Shown here one piece after another: positions 19,912-23,209 of a stretch of DNA of 64,000 bases (its first letter is position 1; each line of letters opens with the position of its first letter). This DNA is from Tepidanaerobacteraceae bacterium (GTDB lineage Bacteria > Bacillota > Thermosediminibacteria > Thermosediminibacterales > Tepidanaerobacteraceae). The stretch spans positions 1-64,000 of the forward strand of contig JANLFP010000007.1 in assembly GCA_024655905.1 (NCBI GenBank). The letters run 5' to 3'. Made by a program: the position numbers and the translations under genes. The notes below the pieces were generated by a model that saw only the letters and a program-made list of their open reading frames with translations, did no database searches and was not told where the DNA came from.

Positions 19912-20140
19912 ATAACATAGTATAAATATGATATTGCAAAATGCAATGCAGGGGAAAAGTAGGCAGCGGTTTTTTTAAGAGAGCCTGCGGCGGGTGCAAG
20001 CGGGCAAAAACCTTGCCGAATTCCGCCCCGAAGCAGCGTTTTTGAAGAGACGCCGGGCAATTTCCCGTTACGACGAAAAGATATAAATTAGGGTGGCAAC
20101 GCGGAATCCTCCGCCCCTTACGGGGCAGGAGGATTTTTTA
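19912..20140 (+). promoter_or_regulatory. T-box leader of serS
   Basis: The canonical T-box sequence AGGGTGGCAACGCGG is at 20090-20104. It is followed by a strong terminator (TCCTCCGCCCC-TTA-CGGGGCAGGAGGA with a T-run, about 20107-20138). Upstream are stem I elements, including AAGTAGGCAG, AGAGAGCCTGC and GGGTGCAAGCGGG. A TCC in the specifier-like segment GAATTCCGCC (about 20019-20028) would pair with a serine anticodon. Uncharged tRNA-Ser should bind and favour the antiterminator, allowing serS expression. Confidence 0.9.
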
Positions 20141-21454: not shown

Positions 21455-21540
21455 AGCTCGCTAAATATGGAAAAATAATTCAGTTGACAAACGCCGCTCA
21501 TCAATATAAAATAAAATAAATAATTTAAAAAATAACATAC

Positions 21541-21727
21541 CTTGCCTCGTTAGAGGTGCGGTAGAGGCGCGGTGCGCCATGAGTAACCTTTTGAGGCGGC
21601 AGCCGATGAAAAAGGCGAAGGGGGCCACCGCCGAAGCCCATATGCCGGCGGGCGAAAGGGCTGGGCCTGCATCGAACAGGTGCAGGACTGTCACTTAAGG
21701 TTCCCGAGCCTTAGGTGGAGCGCTATC
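21541..21727 (+). promoter_or_regulatory. lysine riboswitch (L box)
   Basis: Conserved L-box blocks occur in order: TAGAGGTGCGG at 21550, GAGTAACC at 21580, AAAAAGGCGAAGGGGGCC, CCGCCGAAGCCC, AGGGCTGGG, GGACTGTCACTT and the closing GTGGAGCGCTATC at about 21715-21727. Arrangement and spacing match the family well. Lysine binding should favour the terminator at 21770. No lysine biosynthesis or transport gene follows. Confidence 0.9.
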
Positions 21728-21755
21728 ACACTATTTTGGGAAGGAGGGGCACATT

Positions 21756-21788
21756 ATGCTTTTCTTTCGAAAAAAACGGCTGTGGTAG
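21756..21788 (+). CDS. 10-codon leader-like ORF (MLFFRKKRLW)
   Basis: A strong AAGGAGG site at 21741-21747 precedes ATG at 21756 with 8 nt spacing. The frame reads MLFFRKKRLW and stops inside the loop of the terminator hairpin. It lies between the lysine riboswitch and the terminator, so its translation would unfold the terminator stem. Two adjacent lysine codons and two arginine codons are suggestive but not enough to prove an attenuator peptide. It could also be a remnant of a lost gene's start. Confidence 0.4.
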   Translation: MLFFRKKRLW

Positions 21789-21810
21789 TATCCATTAGCC
21801 GTTTTTTTTA
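21770..21810 (+). terminator. lysine-riboswitch terminator
   Basis: AAAAACGGCT and AGCCGTTTTT are perfectly complementary, with a loop of about 15 nt, followed by eight or more T. This is the expression platform of the riboswitch. Confidence 0.8.
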
Positions 21811-21864
21811 ATATTATGTAATGATGTGAATTTTTTTAGCCAATAATTAAATGGGGTGGAAAAT

Positions 21865-22020
21865 ATGATGGAGCTTCCTATTTTAGACGAGGAAGGCATT
21901 GACGATTTTCTGGAAAAATTCAAGCAGGAGATGAATATAAATTTTAATCATAAAGATAGAGCCGAATTGTATGCCGATTATATTAAAAAGCTCATGTGGG
22001 TGGAAATAAACAAAAAATAG
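21865..22020 (+). CDS. small acidic protein, unknown (51 aa)
   Basis: ATG at 21865 (or 21868) is preceded by GGGGTGG. The product MMELPILDEEGIDDFLEKFK…KDRAELYADYIKKLMWVEINKK is amphipathic and acidic, without motifs. A strong terminator follows 3 bp after the stop. It is the only gene that transcription through the lysine riboswitch would reach. No family is recognised. Confidence 0.5.
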   Translation: MMELPILDEEGIDDFLEKFKQEMNINFNHKDRAELYADYIKKLMWVEINKK

Positions 22021-22022
22021 TT

Positions 22023-22054
22023 GAAAAGGCAGCGCTTTTACGCACTGCCTTTTC
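22023..22054. terminator. terminator after the 51-aa ORF
   Basis: AAAAGGCAGCGC…GCACTGCCTTTT forms a stem followed by TTTTT at 22062-22066. Confidence 0.65.
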
Positions 22055-22063
22055 GACTATTTT

Positions 22064-22255
22064 TTATAAATACGCTATTATGCTCCAAACCCTCTGGTCT
22101 TCCTGACCCAGGCGCCATACAGCTATGCCTCCCAGGTTGTATTCATTGACAACAACTAGTTTTGCGGAAAAACTGCGGGCATCTTCAAACCATACGATAT
22201 GCGCACTCCGTTGGTGGTATAAGAAAAGTTGATTCCTGAGCCTGTTCATCATAGG
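22064..22255 (-). pseudogene. fragment of a GH18 spore-wall glycosidase (YaaH/SleL-like C-terminus)
   Basis: The frame HIVWFEDARSFSAKL…VNEYNLGGIAVWRLGQED…VWSII is the hallmark C-terminal end of GH18 spore-cortex or spore-coat hydrolases. The preceding residues (FSYTTNGVR) are in another frame, and nothing else of the roughly 420-residue protein is present. It is a decayed remnant, next to the orphan riboswitch. Confidence 0.75.
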
Positions 22256-22408: not shown

Positions 22409-23209
22409 ATGGAAAGATTGTTGATTGTAATACTTTTTACAGCAACCATCCATATGGTTGACACTCTCTCTTATTCGGTGAGACTGGCGGGAATCAGGAC
22501 TAAAAGGCTTGCCATGGCTATCTCTCTTTTTAATATCATCGTACTCGTGTCCAGAACCGCTAATATGATACAGGCGCCGCTGCTCGGAAGCATAGTGGAC
22601 AGGGCTATAAATGAAGGGGACACCGTATTTTTGCTGCATGATTTCCGATGGATAATAGCCGCGGCGACCATGGGCAGCATTCTGGGGGCTGCTCTCATAC
22701 CGAGTTTTGTGGTAATTTTTTCCAAAGGGATATTGAAGCTTGAGACCGCGGGTTCCATACCGCAACTGCTGGGCATGGTAATATTTCAGAATCCAATGCA
22801 AAAAATAAGAAAAAGCATCAAAAAACCGGCATTGTCGCTGCTTAGAGAATTGACACCGGAGAAAATACCGCCCACGTTCCTGGTTTTGAACCTTATCATA
22901 ACCTCCATATCCACCATAGGAGTGCTTGCAGCCATATATGCAGGAGCGCTGGTGCCGCAATACAGGATAACTGCGAGTCAGCTTTCGGGGATTATAAATG
23001 GCGCCGCAACCATACTCCTGGCCGTTGTGGTGGACCCTCAAGCGGCGATTATAACGGACCAAACGCTTCAGGGATTGAGAGAAAGAAAAGAAGCCAATAC
23101 AATGGTGGCGTTCCTGGTAGGCGGCAAAATTCTCGGCACCCTGCTCAGCCAATTAATATTTTTGCTTGCAGCGAAAGCGGTGGTTATTATTACAAAAACA
23201 ATAGCATAA
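22409..23209 (+). CDS. amj: lipid II flippase, Amj family
   Basis: The 266-residue membrane protein has about six transmembrane helices and opens with MERLLIVILFTATIHMVDTLSYSVRLAGIRTKRLAMAISLFN, the recognisable N-terminus of Amj (Bacillus subtilis YdaH). LVSRTANMIQAPLLG and the C-terminal LVGGKILGTLLSQLIF also fit. Amj is an alternative to MurJ that moves lipid-linked peptidoglycan precursor across the membrane, and in B. subtilis it is induced by envelope stress. The gene is monocistronic, with its own promoter and a terminator straight after. Confidence 0.9.
   Translation: MERLLIVILFTATIHMVDTLSYSVRLAGIRTKRLAMAISLFNIIVLVSRTANMIQAPLLGSIVDRAINEGDTVFLLHDFRWIIAAATMGSILGAALIPSFVVIFSKGILKLETAGSIPQLLGMVIFQNPMQKIRKSIKKPALSLLRELTPEKIPPTFLVLNLIITSISTIGVLAAIYAGALVPQYRITASQLSGIINGAATILLAVVVDPQAAIITDQTLQGLRERKEANTMVAFLVGGKILGTLLSQLIFLLAAKAVVIITKTIA

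Follow-up and report, generated by a model that had tools for sequence, protein, structure and literature searches.

In Bacillota, the L-box leaders of lysC, lysA and transporter genes are turned off by lysine. The riboswitch unit described here, which resides next to serS in a bacterium of the family Tepidanaerobacteraceae, shares with these systems the aptamer (RF00168), a terminating platform in which P1, antiterminator and terminator compete, and presumably the OFF logic, but its target is a protein of about 50 amino acids without known domain and not a gene for lysine biosynthesis or transport. Single hypothetical genes behind lysine riboswitches have been reported in a survey, where those examined were classified as putative transporters that contain transmembrane domains (PMC5584792). 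In these cases, too, a single uncharacterised gene stands behind a lysine riboswitch, while the product encoded here is predicted to be short, soluble and composed of two helices. Among the genera of the order that were looked up, the main text of the survey has Tepidanaerobacter only for ddh, and Thermosediminibacter is absent from it (PMC5584792). In functional terms, the nearest precedent comes from cyanobacteria, where the glutamine riboswitch controls IF17 (gifB), a small inactivating factor of glutamine synthetase, and related DUF4278 small proteins (PMC6316151). There, an amino acid-sensing riboswitch governs a small protein that regulates the enzyme for the same amino acid by protein contact. 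However, aptamer and ligand differ from those discussed here, the logic is ON for IF17 and OFF in our case, no sequence relation is known, and contact with a partner is so far a proposal for the protein studied here. An earlier description of the riboswitch-small-gene unit was not found in the literature searched, and its small gene is a well-supported new target of a known riboswitch class.

The window analyzed is a stretch of 64,000 nucleotides (contig JANLFP010000007.1, positions 1 to 64,000), and the features relevant here are compiled in Table 1. A first-pass annotation of this DNA had pointed out a well-formed L-box followed by a terminator. Both proved to be present: The RF00168 covariance model matched the forward strand over its full length (model positions 1-182 of 182) with 111.1 bits (E 8.4e-29) against a gathering score of 30, and the terminator hairpin was recovered by folding. 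Using 20 other lysine aptamers of the Thermosediminibacterales as a reference, 49 core columns were defined as invariant, and 44 of these are kept in all ten aptamers found at this site in different genomes. Of the five exceptions, three are changes seen in one genome each, and the other two sit at the extremities of the match. Because the core positions match those of the lysA, ddh and ABC transporter aptamers, lysine is the likely ligand. The genome contains one further lysine riboswitch, which is located upstream of lysA.

Table 1 Features of the riboswitch unit downstream of serS and of its surroundings, with positions in the window.
Feature	Position	Strand	Evidence or remark
T-box leader of serS	19937-20121	+	RF00230, 109 bits
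Promoter of the unit, TTGACA-N17-TAAAAT	21484-21512	+	Alignment of 10 genomes and genome pattern search
Conserved block GCTCATCAATATAAAATAAAAT	21496-21517	+	22 bases; alignment of 10 genomes
Lysine riboswitch aptamer RF00168	21554-21733	+	Rfam covariance model; matching site in 9 relatives; core columns kept
P1 5' strand UGCGGUAG	21557-21564	+	Pairs with 21723-21730, one C-A mismatch
Switching strand CUAUCACA, either P1 3' strand or antiterminator 5' strand	21723-21730	+	Invariant in 10/10 genomes
Linker hairpin burying purine-rich GGAAGGAGGGG and the start of the 10-codon ORF	21738-21769	+	Linker folds, ten genomes
10-codon ORF MLFFRKKRLW, judged incidental	21756-21788	+	ATG in 4/10 genomes
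Intrinsic terminator hairpin and U-run, OFF state of the riboswitch	21770-21809	+	Folding
Antiterminator 3' strand UGUGGUAG	21781-21788	+	Perfect 8-bp complement of 21723-21730, overlaps terminator; invariant in 10/10 genomes
Ribosome-binding site GGGGTGG of the small gene	21853-21859	+	GGAGTG or GAGGTG type in homologs
Small-protein gene, 51 aa, sole riboswitch target	21865-22020	+	Homologs in 12 relatives; dN/dS
Closing intrinsic terminator, unit monocistronic	22012-22065	+	Fold of -32.1 kcal/mol for 22010-22075
C-terminal relic of GH18 (spore-type hydrolase)	22064-22252	-	Pfam PF00704, 4e-7
Amj, alternate lipid II flippase	22409-23209	+	PF10997, E 3e-98
Permease-like hydrophobic protein, 463 aa	23248-24639	-	

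The riboswitch had initially been regarded as an orphan, since no gene for lysine synthesis or transport follows it and a decayed spore-hydrolase fragment lies next door. These two observations hold, with the closing terminator, the GH18 relic and Amj coming next, and loss of the original target had been offered as one explanation. According to this idea, a transporter or biosynthesis gene for lysine disappeared recently and the small ORF left behind is junk, which would fit a neighborhood where the DUF1540 gene is lost and GH18 is reduced to a relic of 62 amino acids. Synteny refutes it. In all ten Thermosediminibacterales genomes with a riboswitch after serS, four Tepidanaerobacteraceae including the present one and six Thermosediminibacteraceae, the same small gene is the sole downstream gene. 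The riboswitch always resides directly 3' of serS, about 130 nt upstream of the small gene and on the same strand. Neither a permease nor another lysine gene was found at the site in these ten genomes, and nothing but the small gene precedes the terminator. A lysine permease immediately behind the riboswitch in relatives, which had been suggested as the sign of a recent deletion, was thus searched for and not encountered. Together with dN/dS values of 0.04 to 0.16 for the small gene, this makes recent gene loss a highly improbable explanation. The riboswitch after serS is real and intact and has not been orphaned, and on the comparative evidence the 51-aa gene, and not the 10-codon ORF further upstream, is its conserved target.

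The surroundings have a common order in the relatives, i.e., serS, riboswitch and small gene, DUF1540 and GH18 (both on the other strand), Amj and the permease-like gene (again on the other strand). GH18 is complete (320 aa) at the equivalent place in genome G005 (L046:8538-9500). The decay next door left the riboswitch unit untouched. The Amj gene of G005 (L046:10278-11180) appears frameshifted. Readthrough from the unit into Amj was considered and is unlikely, given the strong terminator 3' of the small gene and the opposite-strand DUF1540 and GH18 genes that intervene in most relatives. The 463-aa permease-like protein, for which no match was obtained in Pfam or NCBIfam, is a conserved neighbor of serS throughout the order, including genomes that lack the small gene.

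In the genomes searched, homologs of the small protein are confined to Thermosediminibacterales. Matches were obtained in 13 of the 26 genomes of the class, all within this order, so that 12 genomes besides the present one carry the gene, among them Fervidicola ferrireducens, Thermovorax subterraneus, Thermosediminibacter litoriperuensis and a Tepidanaerobacter. No match was found in G002-G004, G008, G011, G012, G014 and G021, and in G013 (L084) a C-terminal remnant, FWVEINKK*, alone survives after the serS terminator, such that the loss is caught in one species. On these grounds the small gene is dispensable. The three Tepidanaerobacter-type genomes G006 (L015), G007 (L011) and G010 (L014) keep it after serS without a riboswitch, and for this reason the job of the protein is not strictly tied to lysine there. 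All three carry a riboswitch-controlled lysine-type ABC transporter. When 30 lysine aptamers from the order were placed in a tree, the ten from the serS site formed one clade (support 0.988) and split by family within it. From this topology, the unit most likely dates back to the ancestor of the Thermosediminibacterales. The clade is separate from that of the ABC transporter aptamers (support 1.0) and from the lysA and ddh aptamers. Elsewhere in the Thermosediminibacterales, lysine riboswitches precede lysA, ddh or a lysine/arginine/ornithine-like ABC transporter, whose substrate is putative and whose score lies below the family cut-off, and the regulatory machinery is therefore in ordinary use in these organisms. 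The ABC transporter units (G003, G004, G006-G008, G010 and G011) belong to the same riboswitch class as the small-gene unit and use the same kind of terminator platform, but never occur in the same genome with it (transporter in 7, small-gene unit in 10, both in 0 of 26 genomes). Note that this exclusion is confounded by descent: The transporter is limited to one part of the Tepidanaerobacteraceae, which implies one or few events and not independent evidence.

The first-pass annotation had correctly listed an unknown 51-aa protein among the reachable products. It starts with ATG at 21865 or 21868, or counts 54 residues from a GTG at 21856; the homologs at riboswitch sites comprise 49-51 amino acids. 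All 13 small genes have an ATG and a ribosome-binding site of the GGAGTG, GGGGTG or GAGGTG type. For the informative genome pairs, dN/dS amounted to 0.04 (G000/G001), 0.16 (G005/G009), 0.09 (G000/G005), 0.10 (G015/G016) and 0.05 (G018/G019), while the pair G015/G020, with five changes only, is too close to be informative. These ratios indicate strong purifying selection on the protein. Its best-conserved part reads KD.AE(I/L)YA..IK...WV. With seven lysines in 51 residues it is fairly rich in this amino acid, which is odd for a starvation product. Profile searches against Pfam, NCBIfam and PDB returned chance-level matches only and hence no membership in a known family of lysine synthesis or transport; a search of 398 genomes across the phylum gave just two chance-level matches (E 0.004 and 0.008), and none was obtained in viral contigs. 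AlphaFold2 weakly predicts a fold of two helices (residues 9-23 and 29-50; mean pLDDT 66, pTM 0.35), for which the best Foldseek match, an acyl carrier protein with E 3.4, is not meaningful.

The expression platform couples P1 to the terminator. CUAUCACA, which is common to P1 and the antiterminator, has two competing partners, UGCGGUAG and, further downstream, UGUGGUAG, and the terminator then follows; the pairing of CUAUCACA with UGUGGUAG is perfect. In the ten-genome comparison, the P1 and terminator pairs were formed in 100% of cells, compared with 25-63% when the partner was slid. The antiterminator is conserved without covariation, and there is none to cite because the pairs hardly vary. 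The energy gap between the two switch states amounts to about 0-8 kcal/mol in each of the ten genomes. From this layout and established L-box logic, we infer an OFF direction, i.e., lysine would shut the gene off.

Between aptamer and terminator lies MLFFRKKRLW, to which the first-pass annotation had drawn attention as a 10-codon ORF with a strong-looking ribosome-binding site ending in the terminator loop. The ORF was found exactly so, with GGAAGGAGGGG just before it and the stop inside the loop. In principle, it could be translated as a leader peptide whose two Lys codons add lysyl-tRNA attenuation to the riboswitch, and several properties invite this idea: an ATG at good spacing behind a strong purine tract, codons that overlap the terminator and a peptide almost unchanged in the four genomes of its own family. 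However, the ATG is present in these four genomes and in none of the six from the sister family, although the rest of the unit is equal there. The purine tract pairs with codons 2-5 in a hairpin that is seen in both switch states and has its long form in the own family, and in the ON state positions 21742-21751 have a mean probability of 0.02 of being unpaired. Codon 4 varies between TTT, TTC and TCC, all of which retain pairing with the purine strand, and the end codons CTG TGG TAG are the invariant antiterminator strand. Furthermore, many aptamers of lysA, ddh and ABC transporter units in the order have a comparable purine tract behind them (e.g., GAGAGGAGG) without a similar ORF. The combination of conserved start, accessible ribosome-binding site and regulatory codons expected of a leader-peptide attenuator is not found. 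We rejected the leader peptide as a candidate on account of the start codon in four of ten genomes, the buried purine tract and the overlap with the antiterminator, and we regard lysyl-tRNA attenuation as very unlikely; judged from the alignments, MLFFRKKRLW is almost certainly an incidental by-product of RNA structure. Of the earlier idea that the RNA or the peptides themselves are the product, the part concerning the conserved 51-aa protein under purifying selection is supported, while that concerning the 10-codon ORF is not.

The RNA itself deserves separate consideration. In other bacteria, trans action of terminated riboswitches is exemplified by SreA of Listeria, and the terminated RNA of our unit might likewise serve as a trans-acting small RNA in lysine excess, the small protein being secondary. 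The promoter lends some weight to this proposal. The block GCTCATCAATATAAAATAAAAT occurs once in the genome and is near-identical across both families, while the lysA promoters of these organisms show no comparable likeness to one another. It comprises the -10 region and spacer, its conservation exceeds the needs of a plain promoter, and it is possibly a candidate site for a DNA-binding protein. On the other hand, antiterminator and downstream gene are both conserved, which is needless for a function of the RNA alone, and the linker that joins aptamer to terminator has diverged freely between the two families. A function of the RNA as the main product is thus improbable.

The reading we favor, at a probability of roughly 80%, is that of a functional transcriptional switch turned off by lysine, with a dedicated output protein of about 50 amino acids; a role of this protein in binding a partner is included with less certainty. 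Transcription would start at the promoter belonging to the unit. Binding of lysine would hold P1 (UGCGGUAG/CUAUCACA) in place, the terminator would form and an RNA of about 290 nt would be released. Without lysine, CUAUCACA would pair with UGUGGUAG, the terminator would be blocked, the polymerase would reach the small gene and the readthrough transcript would end at that gene's own terminator. The switch layout therefore suggests that the small protein, the only gene product of the unit, is made when lysine is scarce. It would then bind a partner and raise the supply of lysine or spare it. We see about even odds that a soluble two-helix protein acts in this manner. Its context is that of genomes whose other lysine riboswitch controls lysA, and it is probably a regulator of lysine supply. 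A more specific version, tentative and somewhat less probable, is that of a lysine-starvation effector from a new family, which by direct contact activates an enzyme or transporter for lysine, or shuts down a step that consumes lysine.

Alternatively, the protein could be unrelated to lysine supply, e.g., linked to serS or to sporulation or stress, and borrow lysine as a starvation signal. The small gene always adjoins serS, spore-type genes are near, and the three genomes retaining the gene without riboswitch are in line with this proposal. It is nevertheless unlikely: A lysine riboswitch with its own aptamer clade has been kept across the split of two families, and the adjacency to serS is likely plain vertical inheritance, because the serS neighborhood also persists in genomes that lost the small gene.

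Should the more specific version, a starvation effector acting by direct contact, be true, the 51-aa protein would be the lysine counterpart of the glutamine riboswitch-controlled IF17, opposite in sign and belonging to a new family. Annotation and surveys often discard short genes, so that short ORF targets tend to be overlooked. An apparent orphan riboswitch need not mean decay, as its target may be a short ORF. For a 51-aa protein without recognized relative, the riboswitch opens a way to test its role directly. Gene function can be read reliably from a metabolite riboswitch, and in the Thermosediminibacterales this label would assign a protein of about 50 amino acids, specific to the order, to the response to lysine shortage.
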